DNA of 55,865 nucleotides, from NCBI GenBank assembly GCA_014382535.1, contig JACNJN010000092.1:1-55865 (forward strand), written 5' to 3'. The stretch comes from Candidatus Desulfolinea nitratireducens (GTDB lineage: Bacteria > Chloroflexota > Anaerolineae > Anaerolineales > Villigracilaceae). The position numbers and the translations under genes were made by a program. Below are positions 49,306 through 55,161 of this stretch, piece after piece; the stretch's first letter is position 1; every line of letters starts with the position of its first letter. Below the pieces are notes generated by a model. It had not been told where the DNA came from. It saw only the letters and a list, made by a program, of their open reading frames with translations, and did no database searches.

Positions 49306-51645
49306 ATGCAGAATATGCCAAAACAAATTGAATCCCGTCTTCTTAAACTGGCCGCCCTCTTCCTCGGATTGTATAGTCTGATCCTGACTATCTCCCCCGC
49401 TGTTCGCGCCCGCAACTGGGATGTGGATTATCTCTGGATGCATTGGGCTGGATTTGCGCTCTGGGCCGGGTTGAGTTGGCTGGTGCATGCTCGCATCAGC
49501 AAAGACGCTCCTGACCGAGACCCTTATCTCTTTCCACTTGCAGCCCTTCTAAGCGGATGGGGGCTTCTCAGCATTTGGCGACTAACTCCCACTTTTGGAT
49601 TACGCCAAAGCCTATGGCTGGCAGTCAGCAGCCTCATCCTGATCATTGGTCTGCGGTGGCATTCTTTACTCCCCACCCTGCGTCGGTATAAATACATCCT
49701 GCTTACCAGCGGATTGATCCTAACCACCCTGACCCTCATCTTTGGGGCCAATCCCCTTGGCGTGGGCCCACGTCTTTGGCTGGAATTAGGGGGGATCTAT
49801 CTCCAACCCTCCGAGCCGCTCAAACTGCTCCTCGTCATTTACCTGGCAGCCTATCTTGCCGATCATATTCCGCGAAAAGGAAATATTTTTCCGCTTATAT
49901 TTCCCACTATTATTCTTGCTAGTCTGGCTTTGCTTTTGCTCTTATTCCAGCGTGATCTTGGTGCGGCTTCGATCTTCATTATGCTCTACGCCAGCGTCCT
50001 CTTTTTGGCCACAGGAAAAAAGCGCGTTTTGTTCGGCAATGCGGCAATCCTCCAGATCGTAGGCTTGCTGGGCTACTATTTTATCGATATTATCCACGTC
50101 CGGCTTGCAATGTGGTTCTCACCCTGGGACGATCCCAGCGGTAGGGGCTACCAGATCATCCAATCCTTAATGGCAATTGCGAACGGAGGATTATTTGGGC
50201 GTGGACCTGGATTGGGATCTCCTGGATTTGTGCCTGTCACGCACTCCGATTTCATCTTTGCATCTCTGGCAGAGGAAACGGGTCTTGCAGGGACGATAGG
50301 CTTGCTCACGTTAATTGGCATGCTTCTTTTCCGCGGCTTTAAGATCACTCTCGACGCTTCCACCATTTTCCGCCGTCTGCTTGCCGCCGGGCTGACAGCC
50401 TATTTAGGCATCCAAAGCCTGCTGATCATTGGTGGAAATCTGCGTCTGCTGCCTCTGACAGGTGTGACTTTGCCTTTCATTTCTTATGGCGGCTCCTCAC
50501 TGCTGACATCATATCTTGCATTACTTCTGCTCATTTTGATCAGCAACGATGCTGGAGAGGCTGCACCCCTCCCTCAGCCACAACCCTATCACATCCTGAG
50601 CGGCATCCTGACTTTGGGATTGGTCTCCGCCGCCCTCATCAACGGCTGGTGGGCAATCGTCCGCGGTCCAGACCTGCTATCACGCAGCGATAATCCTCGC
50701 CGCGCATTGGCAGATCGTTTCGTTCCGCGCGGAAACCTCTTCGACCGGAATAATAATCCCATCAATATCACCACTGGCAAATCAGGGGAATATTCGCGTG
50801 AGTACATTTATCCGGATCTCGCTTCTACAGTTGGATACACGCATCCCACATACGGGCAAGCTGGTCTTGAGGCCGAGTTGGACGATTATTTACGCGGCCT
50901 GGCAGGCAACCCCTCGACCTTGATCTGGTGGAATCACATCCTTTACGGACAACCTCCCCCTGGGCTTGATGTCCGTCTTAGCCTCGATCTTGACCTGCAA
51001 TCGCGCGCTGACGAAAGCCTCGGCAAGCATCAGGGCGCAGTCGTTCTCGTCAATGCCGAGAGTGGAGAAATCCTCGCCATGGCTTCACATCCCACTTTTA
51101 ATGCCAACTTGCTCGGCGAGATCGGCGATGATCTGCTCACAGACGAAAATTCACCACTCCTCAATCGAGCAACCCAGGGACTTTATCCCCTTAGCCTGGA
51201 ATTCGATGCGCTTTTCAGCCAATCAATTACACATGGGATACGCTTGCCCGTTGCAGAAACCAGCAAGGGCTATGCCAGCCCATTTCAAATGGCGATGATC
51301 GCAGCAGCCCTGAGCAATGAGGGCATCGCTCAGGCTCCCCGCCTTGCCCTGGCCGTGAACACACCCCAAAATGGATGGGTGATCCTCCACGCTATCGGCG
51401 AGCCGATCGAGTATTTCACATCGAAAGAAACCGGGCAGCTCATCACCACATTTGACAGCGAAGACGAATCATATTGGCAAATTATCTCAGCGAACAACAC
51501 TGAGGAAAATTCTCTCACCTGGCTTCTTGCAGGAACCCTTTCCGAATGGCGTGGCACGCCATTCGGACTAGCCGTGCTCCTGGAAGAAAATAACCCCAAG
51601 CTGGCAAAAGAAATCGCAAGAAATTTGTTGGGATATGCGCCTTGA
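49306..51645 (+). CDS. RodA/FtsW SEDS glycosyltransferase fused to a degenerate PBP
   Basis: The product is 779 residues. Residues 1 to about 420 form a SEDS polymerase with ten or so helices, 'GVGPRLWLELGGIYLQPSEPLKL', 'GPGLGSPGFVPVTHSDFIFASLAEETG' (in part) and 'PFISYGGSSLL'. It polymerises lipid II. A linker helix leads to a class-B PBP-like half with the pedestal ('RGNLFDRNNNPI', 'QAGLEAELDDYLRG') and 'VLVNAESGEILAMASHP'. At the place of the SxxK serine the sequence is 'LYPLSLEFDAL' (S630...F633, no Lys), and the KTG is missing ('LLAGTLSEW'). The transpeptidase half is therefore probably inactive and structural. Confidence 0.88.
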   Translation: MQNMPKQIESRLLKLAALFLGLYSLILTISPAVRARNWDVDYLWMHWAGFALWAGLSWLVHARISKDAPDRDPYLFPLAALLSGWGLLSIWRLTPTFGLRQSLWLAVSSLILIIGLRWHSLLPTLRRYKYILLTSGLILTTLTLIFGANPLGVGPRLWLELGGIYLQPSEPLKLLLVIYLAAYLADHIPRKGNIFPLIFPTIILASLALLLLLFQRDLGAASIFIMLYASVLFLATGKKRVLFGNAAILQIVGLLGYYFIDIIHVRLAMWFSPWDDPSGRGYQIIQSLMAIANGGLFGRGPGLGSPGFVPVTHSDFIFASLAEETGLAGTIGLLTLIGMLLFRGFKITLDASTIFRRLLAAGLTAYLGIQSLLIIGGNLRLLPLTGVTLPFISYGGSSLLTSYLALLLLILISNDAGEAAPLPQPQPYHILSGILTLGLVSAALINGWWAIVRGPDLLSRSDNPRRALADRFVPRGNLFDRNNNPINITTGKSGEYSREYIYPDLASTVGYTHPTYGQAGLEAELDDYLRGLAGNPSTLIWWNHILYGQPPPGLDVRLSLDLDLQSRADESLGKHQGAVVLVNAESGEILAMASHPTFNANLLGEIGDDLLTDENSPLLNRATQGLYPLSLEFDALFSQSITHGIRLPVAETSKGYASPFQMAMIAAALSNEGIAQAPRLALAVNTPQNGWVILHAIGEPIEYFTSKETGQLITTFDSEDESYWQIISANNTEENSLTWLLAGTLSEWRGTPFGLAVLLEENNPKLAKEIARNLLGYAP

Positions 51646-51924: not shown

Positions 51925-52611
51925 TTATTTGTCTTTGTCCTTTTTGCCTTTGTCGTCTTTATCTTTGCCGTCTTTGTCTTTGCCGTCTTTGTCCTTTTTG
52001 CCTTTGTCGTCTTTGTCTTTGCCGTCTTTGTCCTTGCCGTCTTTGTCCTTGCCGTCTTTGTCCTTGTCTTTCTCGTCCTTGCCTTTATCCTTGTCTTTGT
52101 CTTTATCTTTGTCTTTGTCCTTGTCTTTCCCTTTATCTTTATTTTTATCCTTCGTATCTTTGTCCTTCCCTTTGTCTTTATCCTTCGTATCTTTGTCCTT
52201 CTCGTCTTTGTCGACTTTCTCCTTCTTGCCGTTTTTCTCCTTCTCTTCTTCTTTTTCTTCCGATGAAACAGAAGGGATCGGTTCTTCTAAATTCTTAAAA
52301 AAATTGCCCAAGCGTTCATTAACCTGATCATCGGTAATTGCTTCATCCGCCAGAATATCGGCAACAATATCGATTGAAATGGCATTAAAGCTGAGGTGCG
52401 GATCAACGCTATAATCAGCTTTTTTATTGGCCTGTAATAAAATCGGAACGGATGTATATTCTGCGTCAACAAATGAGTTGTCAGCAAGGACTGTGGTCCA
52501 CAATCCGCCAGCAAATATTAACGTAAGCATAAATCCGCGCAACCATTGAAACAGTTGACTCGATATATTAATTTTTCGCTTGGTTTTTGATTTTACATCC
52601 ATACTTTTCAA
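51925..52611 (-). CDS. Exported protein with Lys/Asp-repeat tail
   Basis: The product is 228 residues. A basic N-terminus and a signal or anchor helix ('LRGFMLTLIFAGGLWTTVLA') precede a 60-residue globular stretch ('VDPHLSFNAISIDIVADIL', 'DDQVNERLGNFF'). From about residue 120 the chain is a low-complexity polyampholyte built of KDKDGKDKD and KDKDKDK units to the end. The tail is highly charged, nearly net neutral and certainly disordered. It could act as a wall spacer or surface polymer. No known family. Confidence 0.7.
   Translation of the reverse strand: MKSMDVKSKTKRKINISSQLFQWLRGFMLTLIFAGGLWTTVLADNSFVDAEYTSVPILLQANKKADYSVDPHLSFNAISIDIVADILADEAITDDQVNERLGNFFKNLEEPIPSVSSEEKEEEKEKNGKKEKVDKDEKDKDTKDKDKGKDKDTKDKNKDKGKDKDKDKDKDKDKDKGKDEKDKDKDGKDKDGKDKDGKDKDDKGKKDKDGKDKDGKDKDDKGKKDKDK
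51929..52200. repeat. Tandem 15-bp-type repeat coding for the KDKDGK tail
   Basis: The plus strand repeats TCTTTGTCTTTGCCG and close variants (TCTTTGTCC, TTTTTGCCT) many times. Units of 3 to 5 codons are arranged irregularly, as expected from replication slippage. Confidence 0.8.
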
Positions 52612-52746: not shown

Positions 52747-55161
52747 CTAATTGCTAATTGTAATATGATCTTTAATCTGTCTAAATTTCATTCTTCCAAT
52801 ACCTGAAACATTTTCAATTTCATTGATCTGAGAAAAATCTCCATTGGCAATTCTGTATTCGACGATACTCTTGGCAATTTTCGCCCCAATTCCTTCCAGG
52901 ATCACAAAATCCTCTACCTCTGCGTCGTTTATATTCACCTGGATAGGATCCCATTTTTTGACTATTATTGGTAGCAAGCGATATACCATAATTGGTTCTG
53001 ATTTTCCTTTGAACATATAACTACCCAATGGAGAAAACACAAAGTTGTCACGATAATCGCCCAAAGCTTCATAGGTTTCCTGACTGATAATGGCACTCGT
53101 TTCATGAAGTTCTTTGGTGAGATTTTCGATCCGGGCTGTAATATTGACTGCATCACCGATAATGGAGTAATGAAGCCTATCGGCAGTGCCAATACCACCA
53201 GCGGCGACTTCCCCTGTGTTGATCCCGATACCAGTCACCATTGGGGGGATGCCTACTTCACGGCGGTGTTTATTCATTGCTTTTACATTTTTAAGGATTT
53301 CAACTGCTGCCAGGCATGTTTGTAGAGCGCTCTCAGAAGGATCCAGGGGAATTGGCAGTACGCCGAAATATGCCATTATCGAATCACCAACAAATTCACT
53401 CGTCACGCCATCGTTGGCGTTGATGATCGGGACAATTTCCCCGTAATATTGGTTGAGCCAATCCAAAATGGTCGTTGGAGATTCATTCTCTGAGATTACG
53501 GTAAATCTGCGAATGTCGGTGATCATAATCGTGGCGATAGTATTTTGCCCCTCAATTTTTAGATTCCCGGATTGGAGCCCCTCTCTCATTTGATCCCGTA
53601 CTTGTGGGGTAATCGTACGCCCTAGCATATCCCTGTAAATCTCCCCTTCCCTTAGGTTGGAGACCATATAATTAAAGGTATGTGCCAACATTGCCAGCTC
53701 ATCTCTCCCCTGGGGTTCCACGACTACATCCCATTTACCATGGCTAACCTCGGAAGCCGCTAAGATAACCTGTTTTAGCGGTTGCGTGATCCTTCTGGAC
53801 AAAAGCACACCGACACCAATGATCAGAAGTAGTCCTATGGTGGCGAGAATATATATTTGCACCTGAGTCTGCTGACTTGGACTCACCAGAAAACTTTCTG
53901 CGAGAGATACTCCTACTATACCAATATCATGGTCGTCGCGCACTTCCCAGGGAGCCAGGATCTCACGATAATCAATCTCGGACGCAATCAAAAATCGCAT
54001 TTGACTCTCGTAGTCCTGACGTTCAAAAATCCTTAAGACCCTCTCCTCTGGAAGATCAATATTATCAGCTTCACCAAGGGTTGTACCCAAGGTTTTCCCA
54101 CGGTAATTGTAAATCGAAATATGGGCGAGAGAATTTTCCTTACCGAGTAATACTTCCCTGGCTTCCTGGATCATTGCTGGGATAGATCGGCCCACCAATA
54201 CTACGCCGATGAGTTGGTTGTCCTCATCTGTAATTGGACCTGCAACGTATAAGTAATTCCCCCACGAAGCCTGAATGAGTCCGGCAAATTTATCCCCCTG
54301 CTCATCAGAGCTTTGGTCAAGCACTTTTTGTACGAATTCTGCCTCAGTAAAAATGGTATCACCCTTCGAATATTCAAAGGATTCGCGCCCCCCTTCAGGT
54401 ATATGGCGGACGGATATCAAGGCTTTTCCTTTAGAATCGAGAATCTCGATGGCTTCTTCTTGGTTATTAATTGCTAATCCTAATACAAGATTTCTTAAAG
54501 CTTCAGTATCATTTTCTATAATAGATTCTGCTAAACCGTCAGTGAAAGCCAGGAGCCGCAAAGTTTCCAGGCGATTATTTTCTTCTTCTACTAACCAGGA
54601 AAATGTCAATTTCCCAATCTCGATCAGGTTATTGACAAAGCGGTCTTCAATCGAATCAATAGCTACCTGGCTAACTACATAACCGGCTCCCATGGCAAGC
54701 AGCAGTGATAAAAACAGATAAGGAAGGATAATCTTAAGACGAACGGAGAGACGATCTAAGTGAAAAGCAGACCTTCTCCTTCTACTCCTTTTTAATTCTT
54801 CAGGCTCGATATGCTCCAATTTCTCTAATGCTTTTTCAACCCATGTTTTGCTAAAAGGTGATCGTAAAAATATATCGACCCCGAACTCTTTCACATCCAG
54901 CTCACGCGATAAATCTGGATAGCGATTAGTGATGATCACCTTAACATCGGGATATTTATTTCGAAGACCCCCTAACAGTTCGAAGAGAACACTCTTGGAC
55001 AAGTGAAGGTCCAGAACCATTAAATTAGGCTTATCCATTTGAAGTATAAAGATTGCTTCATCAACTTTTAAAGTAATAAATACTTCGTCTCCCCGTTGGG
55101 CGAATATGTTTTTGAGAGTTTGTGCCGCTTCGATCTCAGATTGAACGATGAGAACTTTCAT
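52747..55161 (-). CDS. Receiver-sensor-HAMP-class III cyclase with HhH tail
   Basis: The product is 804 residues. In order: receiver domain 1-120 with D51 ('VLDLHLS'); basic linker; membrane helix about 143-168; extracytoplasmic sensor about 170-430; membrane helix about 434-454; HAMP 455-508; class III nucleotide cyclase about 535-730 with metal Asp 549 ('MITDIRRFT') and 593 ('FVGDSIMAYFG') and 'GDAVNITARIENL'; and a C-terminal tandem helix-hairpin-helix 740-804 ('LEGIGAKIAKSIVEYR', 'VSGIGRMKFRQIKDHI') like ComEA. It should make cAMP (or cGMP) in response to an outside signal. The receiver and HhH ends are unusual additions. Confidence 0.88.
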   Translation of the reverse strand: MKVLIVQSEIEAAQTLKNIFAQRGDEVFITLKVDEAIFILQMDKPNLMVLDLHLSKSVLFELLGGLRNKYPDVKVIITNRYPDLSRELDVKEFGVDIFLRSPFSKTWVEKALEKLEHIEPEELKRSRRRRSAFHLDRLSVRLKIILPYLFLSLLLAMGAGYVVSQVAIDSIEDRFVNNLIEIGKLTFSWLVEEENNRLETLRLLAFTDGLAESIIENDTEALRNLVLGLAINNQEEAIEILDSKGKALISVRHIPEGGRESFEYSKGDTIFTEAEFVQKVLDQSSDEQGDKFAGLIQASWGNYLYVAGPITDEDNQLIGVVLVGRSIPAMIQEAREVLLGKENSLAHISIYNYRGKTLGTTLGEADNIDLPEERVLRIFERQDYESQMRFLIASEIDYREILAPWEVRDDHDIGIVGVSLAESFLVSPSQQTQVQIYILATIGLLLIIGVGVLLSRRITQPLKQVILAASEVSHGKWDVVVEPQGRDELAMLAHTFNYMVSNLREGEIYRDMLGRTITPQVRDQMREGLQSGNLKIEGQNTIATIMITDIRRFTVISENESPTTILDWLNQYYGEIVPIINANDGVTSEFVGDSIMAYFGVLPIPLDPSESALQTCLAAVEILKNVKAMNKHRREVGIPPMVTGIGINTGEVAAGGIGTADRLHYSIIGDAVNITARIENLTKELHETSAIISQETYEALGDYRDNFVFSPLGSYMFKGKSEPIMVYRLLPIIVKKWDPIQVNINDAEVEDFVILEGIGAKIAKSIVEYRIANGDFSQINEIENVSGIGRMKFRQIKDHITISN

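Follow-up and report, generated by a model that had tools for sequence, protein, structure and literature searches.

We describe a membrane receptor with a predicted guanylate-type cyclase as its output, encoded next to the gene of an exported protein that is likely its partner. The joint best explanation, to which we give a probability of about 0.57, is an Anaerolineales guanylate-type cyclase receptor that senses this cognate partner, with a pseudo-receiver serving for docking and a C-terminal helix-hairpin-helix (HhH) pair as an optional add-on. The gene lies in a stretch of 55,865 nucleotides of Candidatus Desulfolinea nitratireducens, analysed over its full length and called the window below, which is the whole of contig C164 in a draft genome of 223 contigs. 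An earlier reading made from the letters alone (the sequence-only reading) had listed a receiver, an outside sensor, HAMP, a class III cyclase and an HhH pair, and Pfam, fold matches and hydropathy bear out both this list and its order. It gave no strand and did not notice the partner gene, the HhH-less tandem copy or the guanylate-type residues of the active site. The features are collected in Table 1.

Table 1. Features of the receptor locus in the window (residue numbers refer to the receptor protein)
Feature	Positions	Strand	Basis
Receptor cyclase gene, REC-TM-dCache_3-TM-HAMP-CYC-HhH, 804 aa	52747..55161	minus	single open frame, ATG start
N-terminal pseudo-receiver, residues 3-111	54829..55155	minus	Pfam, alignment, fold match
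TM1 (about 144-168) and extracytoplasmic dCache_3 sensor (about 169-432)	53866..54732	minus	Pfam, hydropathy, structure
TM2 (about 433-455) and HAMP (453-505)	53647..53865	minus	Pfam, hydropathy
Predicted class III nucleotidyl cyclase domain, residues 543-725	52987..53535	minus	Pfam, alignment, PDB match
ComEA-type helix-hairpin-helix pair, C-terminal, residues 741-801	52759..52941	minus	Pfam, TIGR00426, conservation
Partner gene directly downstream of the receptor, predicted exported/TM-anchored protein	51925..52611	minus	profile and alignment
C-terminal end of the upstream tandem copy's partner gene, continuing on contig C177	55769..55864	minus	51-base exact end overlap

Domain architecture and topology of the receptor

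The multi-domain architecture of the receptor is not a product of chance. When the window protein was scanned against Pfam, four domains passed their cut-offs: dCache_3 (PF14827, residues 188-337, between the two TM helices; E 6.1e-6, 26.4 vs 25.7 bits), HAMP (E 4.1e-14), Guanylate_cyc (PF00211; E 5.6e-21, 75.4 vs 21.9 bits) and HHH_3 (E 1.2e-15, 57.8 vs 27 bits). Response_reg (E 6.8e-7) reached 29.9 bits, 0.3 below its cut-off of 30.2. In eight other REC-type receptors scanned, the receiver cut-off was passed by five (31.7-41.6 bits), with three below (22.7, 28.5 and 29.0), and that of dCache_3 by six (best E 3.5e-23), with two below. Profile support, on which the sequence-only reading had made its receiver and HhH depend, is full for the HhH pair (HHH_3 and TIGR00426 both over cut-off), while the receiver, just under its threshold, is recovered through its fold. 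In structure searches with an AlphaFold model of the receptor built from seven rows, the receiver matched receiver structures (Z 17.9, rmsd 1.9 over 117 residues) and the sensor matched dCache structures (Z 18.1, rmsd 3.5 over 243 residues). The model is good for these two domains and poor for the cyclase, where the blocks of residues 540-700 mostly have pLDDT values of 26-66. Hydropathy shows hydrophobic segments at about 138-168 and 432-459, which flank the sensor; residues ~169-431 would thus lie outside, and the receiver, HAMP, cyclase and HhH pair would be cytoplasmic.

Linkage of the partner gene to the sensor

The partner protein begins with a TM or signal segment, followed by ADYSxDP, then by PIP or TPVPTVTP, and ends in a variable tail, which is Lys/Asp-rich in the window. 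No Pfam family passed its cut-off on the partner core in the window partner and four relatives scanned, nor did any NCBIfam family match the window partner. Conservation is confined to the membrane-proximal core and does not extend to the tail.

To count neighbours, we used an iterated profile, leaving out 15 duplicate loci and not taking frames under about 300 aa as receptors. The partner was found directly downstream of 22 of the 24 REC-type receptors; one of the two misses lies at a contig end, and the hit counted for genome G047 is an 81-aa frame unreported by the genome search. REC-less receptors with the same sensor had it in 9 of 17 cases, one of them weak (E 0.0013), and one of the eight without it has only 231 bases downstream. 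Behind sensor-less cyclases it was found in 0 of 11. Because this profile was iterated on receptor neighbours, and the A1 profile was likewise built from them, adjacency is partly built into the count, and hence a seed-free count was made. Across 301 genomes of the order, 86 partner-family hits were detected in 64 genomes. For 72 of them, a receptor match stands upstream on the same strand at no more than 2.3 kb; without the seed genomes, the figure is 54 of 67. Seen from the receptor side, 63 of 78 receptors of this order sample have the partner. The seed-free and receptor-side counts cover receptors up to genome G309 only, with the genomes common to both samples inferred. The receptor list behind the figure of 72, made of the order search and one row of another search, holds at least the receptors among the matches listed.

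The exceptions were looked at individually. In the order search, 4 of 21 REC-type receptors have no adjoining partner; genomes G047 and G142, which show no full adjacent partner at their REC-type receptor, carry one elsewhere, and for G300 and G238 there was none among the matches listed at E 1e-5. Among the 14 non-adjacent hits, 11 were inspected: three have a receptor upstream, three stand tail-to-tail with a receptor and five have none nearby, one of these being at a contig start. A sample of 396 genomes of the class gave 28 partner hits in 24 genomes, 26 of them behind a receptor matching the sensor-HAMP profile, although in five of the 26 the locus holds the C-terminal part of the receptor only and the match may be mostly HAMP. 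The two others are one hit behind a histidine kinase and the orphan of G047. By Pfam, the outputs of partner-linked receptors are a cyclase, HD_5, which we take to be an HD-GYP domain, or a histidine kinase. The linkage tracks the sensor and not the output, and this is the main reason why we read the partner as the cognate protein of the sensor. Receptor and surface protein likely form a pair; they would presumably touch one another, a contact that adjacency suggests and does not prove.

It is doubtful, though worth weighing, that the downstream product serves in surface structure or adhesion and accompanies the receptor as its target or operon mate rather than as a signalling partner. The range of the tails, from low complexity to large ectodomains, is typical of surface proteins: five of six long partners scanned (884 to 3337 aa) carry DUF11, CBM96, Calx-beta, laminin G or lamin-tail domains, one carries none of them, and other tails are Lys/Asp or Thr/Pro low complexity. 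Such a role would, however, not lead one to expect that the membrane-proximal core is the conserved part and not the tail, that linkage follows the dCache sensor across changes of output domain and vanishes in sensor-less cyclases, or that tail-to-tail pairs exist at three loci, which an operon alone does not explain. A cognate partner sensed by the receptor is the reading that we retain.

Among the partner loci, one directly behind a REC-type receptor encodes a partner of 3337 aa, in which 15 stretches match DUF11, 4 CBM96 and 3 Calx-beta (L144 1501-11511). At two loci, two tandem partner genes stand behind one receptor (L148 1949-3265 and 3088-5739; L114 4671-5594 and 5962-7728).

Cyclase domain and predicted substrate

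By sequence, the output domain belongs to the class III nucleotidyl cyclases. Asp549 and Asp593, which we take to be the metal residues, and Asn673 and Arg677, presumably the transition-state residues, are invariant in the seven rows of alignment A2. The alignment places Glu589 and Ser666 at the purine-contact positions of the window cyclase. The first of these is Glu in all eight rows of the HhH-holding subclade (the five with HhH plus C177, G165b and G100), whereas of the 16 rows outside it 14 have Lys and 2 have Gln; the second is Ser, Thr or Ala in the seven subclade rows that reach it, and Thr in 16 of 16 elsewhere. In the PDB, the top match (2w01, E 6.8e-27) has Glu in the purine-contact column and the second best, a bacteriophytochrome-cyclase fusion, has Lys.

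The structure 2w01 belongs to the guanylyl cyclase Cya2, which the E488K change turns into an adenylyl cyclase (PMC5995499, in part). Guanylyl cyclases are described as having Glu where adenylyl cyclases have Lys, together with Cys or Ser in place of Asp, the Glu mattering most (PMC7384201, in part). In Ma1120, the K101E variant still works better with ATP, and Glu alone need not switch preference (PMC4215837, in part). Judged from its residues, the Glu589/Ser666 pair is guanylate-type and the window enzyme is most likely a guanylate cyclase, with GTP as its predicted substrate. The window genome encodes seven cNMP-binding domains, which means that candidate effectors are available. A guanylate cyclase as predicted here would enlarge the small set of bacterial cGMP systems.

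Helix-hairpin-helix tail

Profile matches and substitution patterns indicate that the HhH domain is real and under purifying selection. Besides HHH_3, it matches TIGR00426 (ComEA HhH repeat region) barely over the cut-off (53.3 vs 53.1 bits). Identity to the four HhH-carrying relatives is 52, 58, 52 and 36% in the HhH pair, against 78, 76, 73 and 62% in the cyclase. For the HhH, dS was computable in three of four pairs, which gave dN/dS values of 0.15-0.26, with synonymous sites near saturation. Low dN/dS together with this lower identity points to a domain that is kept and drifts faster than the cyclase. In the full AlphaFold model the region forms four helices with block means of about 53-80 pLDDT. 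The structure prediction of residues 735-804 that the sequence-only reading had proposed (three rows) gave a mean pLDDT of 50, and it is the sequence profiles that support the HhH; as receiver and dCache matches took up the output of the structure searches, the fold assignment too goes back to sequence. The nearest HhH pairs in the PDB are those of EEPD1 (endonuclease/exonuclease/phosphatase family domain-containing protein 1), ComEA, KIF22 and Tex. A plain ComEA role was set aside: the whole-protein comE model TIGR01259 is far under its cut-off (55.9 vs 152.35 bits), the site of ComEA K164 is Ile and the domain is acidic.

K164 of ComEA is essential for DNA binding (PMC9747964, in part). The sites of K164, K193, K197 and K199 were placed by residue counts on the ComEA sequence of B. 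subtilis. At the K164 position, four of the five proteins, the window's among them, have Ile, one relative has Arg and none has Lys. A Lys or Arg stands one residue ahead of this site in all five, and all five keep Lys at the K199 position. The window genome's own ComEA-like protein has Thr at the K164 position, and for this reason the loss of K164 alone is not decisive. The window HhH has a pI of 4.7 and a charge of -4.1, whereas the four relatives are basic (+0.9 to +5.0); the second Gly of the first hairpin is kept in the window protein and lost in 4/4 relatives. With K164 lost, the flanking Lys/Arg and K199 kept, and charges running from -4 to +5, DNA binding is possible in the relatives and weakly suggested for the window copy. 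The sequence-only reading had spoken of a DNA-binding type module, which names the right fold family and suits the acidic window domain poorly.

That the HhH holds the cyclase on membrane-near DNA, with cyclic nucleotide made beside the nucleoid or with DNA occupancy tuning the enzyme in a DisA-like way, is an unlikely reading. The strong HHH_3 match, the basic domains of the four relatives, the basic residues kept at and near the ComEA sites and the predicted cytoplasmic position of the HhH would suit it. The acidic window domain, the lack of Lys at the K164 site in every copy, the missing second Gly in four of five and a rate of change above that of the other main domains argue against it. 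We prefer an optional add-on, as set out with the mechanism below. Among the papers listed in literature searches (title and start of abstract), none dealt with a cyclase joined to an HhH domain and none with the receptor system described here, and absence there is not absence from print.

N-terminal pseudo-receiver

The N-terminal domain has the receiver fold and lacks residues of a phosphorylatable receiver; it is a pseudo-receiver. In the window protein, Asp51 and Thr78 are kept, the Mg-binding acidic pair is replaced by Gln7-Ser8 and the conserved Lys by Ser101. Over the 24 aligned rows, the Asp is kept in all, and the acidic pair and the Lys in none; the pair site holds Gln, Leu or His first and Ser, Thr, Ala, Asn, Gln or Pro second. 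The residue after the pair site is often acidic, and the Pfam match nonetheless places the pair at 7-8. Loss of the acidic pair and the Lys fits the pseudo-receiver criteria of PMC12632262 (in part). These losses make phosphorylation unlikely, and it was set aside, which leaves the phospho-receiver of the sequence-only reading unsupported. The receiver is as well conserved as the sensor in three of the four relatives (69-71%) and less so in G158 (44 vs 60%), and from this a role without phosphate is probable.

That receiver phosphorylation, an outside ligand and HhH-bound DNA jointly control the cyclase, as the sequence-only reading had it, is very improbable: every named domain is present, Asp51 and Thr78 are retained and the nearest HhH pairs mostly come from nucleic-acid proteins, but the acidic pair and the Lys are missing throughout, the window HhH is acidic with Ile at the K164 position, and the sister copy on contig C177 has no HhH at all.

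Distribution, tandem copy and history

A search of 400 order genomes with a limit of E 1e-60 found the complete arrangement, HhH included, in five of them; one is the window's, and the copies in the four others are 55-71% identical to it; one further copy, in G100, is broken by a contig end. Receptors running from receiver to cyclase without HhH account for 23 further rows, which end at query residues 729-746. The combination of receiver, sensor, HAMP, cyclase and HhH that the sequence-only reading had singled out is rare as such and recurrent once the HhH is left off. In the databases, relatives were found in two MAGs, at 69% identity in VGOC01000008 (titled Chloroflexi bacterium) and at 71% in JADHXE010000069 (Anaerolineales bacterium), and in four records at 42-43%; among the latter is Longilinea arvoryzae (order Anaerolineales), whose REC-type receptor has an adjoining partner gene. 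With a cyclase plus HhH query in 396 class and 400 phylum genomes, the window alone reaches the HhH among the matches listed; these samples show none of the four HhH relatives, and an HhH behind a more diverged cyclase could escape such a query.

An exact end-to-end overlap of 51 bases connects the right end of the window with the end of contig C177. C177 carries a receptor copy of 736 aa, 73% identical over residues 1-731 and without HhH, with its own partner gene behind it. This partner gene breaks off in a Lys/Asp/Glu repeat, which the right end of the window continues to the stop. Joining the contigs gives the gene order cyclase, partner, cyclase-HhH, partner. The window copy and the C177 copy come out as sisters in a 24-row tree (support 100/99), inside a five-row group (100/99) whose other members all have HhH. 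The simplest history is a single gain of the HhH and a single loss, with G165b, a second copy without HhH, having no settled place.

We also looked for a relict of the HhH behind the C177 cyclase. No blastn match was obtained at 1e-3. A local alignment pairs the DNA there with the sequence coding for the HhH, at a score that one in 1000 Markov shuffles attained, and when the spacer is included, the best alignment shifts register. On account of this change of register, a decayed HhH is likely rather than certain. The possible decayed HhH-like stretch lies at L040 11790-12172, past the stop codon that ends the cyclase gene of the tandem copy. No REC-type row was present in other genomes of the window's own family, f1, among the matches listed, and for that reason transfer of the REC-type receptor into the window lineage is possible. 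The HhH fusion is a rare and modest variation. The tandem copies with and without HhH offer a natural experiment on the effect of an HhH in a membrane cyclase.

Proposed mechanism and known systems

We infer the mechanism, including the roles of the HhH and the pseudo-receiver, from anatomy and gene linkage. The dCache_3 domain would sense the state of its cognate membrane-anchored exported protein, or a ligand presented by it. Near the membrane, the partner core would most likely meet the receptor at its dCache domain or its TM helices, as YycH/YycI may serve to illustrate with WalK. A change in the ectodomain (binding, tension or cleavage) would then move the sensor, HAMP and the cyclase dimer, with HAMP and the helix ahead of the cyclase relaying the signal to the homodimer. 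The pseudo-receiver would probably be a non-phosphorylated surface for docking or for tuning the dimer. The HhH would be a late-acquired cytoplasmic add-on, most likely fixing the location or the company of the cyclase by binding a protein or by touching DNA weakly and without specificity, and no third input for the core function; that the sister copy does without it suggests that it is probably unnecessary for the core.

A wider reading, which we hold at slightly under even odds, extends this to receptor pairs of the Anaerolineae in general: dCache_3 receptors with exchangeable outputs (cyclase, HD-GYP or histidine kinase) would be paired with partners whose ADYSxDP core docks and whose ectodomain, from a 100-residue tail to more than 3,000 residues with modules of carbohydrate-binding and adhesin-like type, senses. 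As part of the same reading, the HhH-holding branch would have gone from ATP-type to GTP-type residues and gained the HhH, which was then lost in one tandem copy. Should the core of the partner dock on the sensor, the cognate protein of a Cache receptor would be defined by genetics, and a surface-sensing system would be named for a large and poorly studied group of environmental bacteria.

Several known systems resemble parts of this receptor. Cya2 of Synechocystis, as far as the partial source goes, shares the matching cyclase domain, the purine-contact Glu and the membrane receptor with an extracellular sensor; it has CHASE2, whereas the window receptor has dCache_3, a pseudo-receiver ahead, an HhH behind and a partner gene. 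ComEA shares the HhH pair of about 60 residues and the TIGR00426 match; unlike it, the window HhH is predicted to be cytoplasmic and is fused to a cyclase, in addition to the differences given above. DisA is a c-di-AMP synthase with an HhH DNA-binding domain. It is alike in joining a nucleotide-second-messenger enzyme to an HhH, but has a DAC domain where the window protein has a class III cyclase and a membrane receptor, and no DAC family was among the 13 Pfam hits of the window protein at E up to 1. WalK with YycH/YycI, in the excerpts drawn upon, is likewise a receptor with accessory membrane proteins from the same locus. A WalK-YycH model was the first Foldseek row for the window receptor model, with a low TM-score (0.14/0.18). 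The output of WalK is a histidine kinase and that of the window receptor a cyclase, and YycH/I are likened to the partner by locus arrangement, not by sequence. Lastly, in CyaC-CycR-Clr of Sinorhizobium meliloti, a membrane cyclase holds transcription factors, a model for protein contact of the HhH (PMC10463352, in part); CyaC is an adenylate cyclase, with no HhH in the abstract, whereas the window enzyme is predicted to be guanylate-type with an HhH.

Gene neighbourhood

Other genes around the receptors were noted. In the four other HhH genomes, a GAF/GGDEF-looking gene stands divergently beside the receptor (by eye; L041 10795-13269, L067 2718-6233, L069 1258-4281, L071 8929-10992); none was seen by eye in the translations beside the window copies. 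On the other side of the receptor, these genomes have runs of PspC/LiaF-looking small membrane proteins (by eye; L041 3468-7154, L067 10924-14647, L071 76-4042, L069 8405-9913), which hints at an envelope-stress neighbourhood. In the window, positions 49306-51645 of the plus strand encode a 779-aa protein with Pfam matches to FtsW/RodA, then PBP dimerisation and transpeptidase, in one frame, a SEDS-PBP fusion in which the transpeptidase match covers positions 1-41 of 299 only. Stand-alone receiver-like genes lie upstream of the receptor at L144 14148-14564 (Response_reg E 1.9e-28) and L147 6477-6890.
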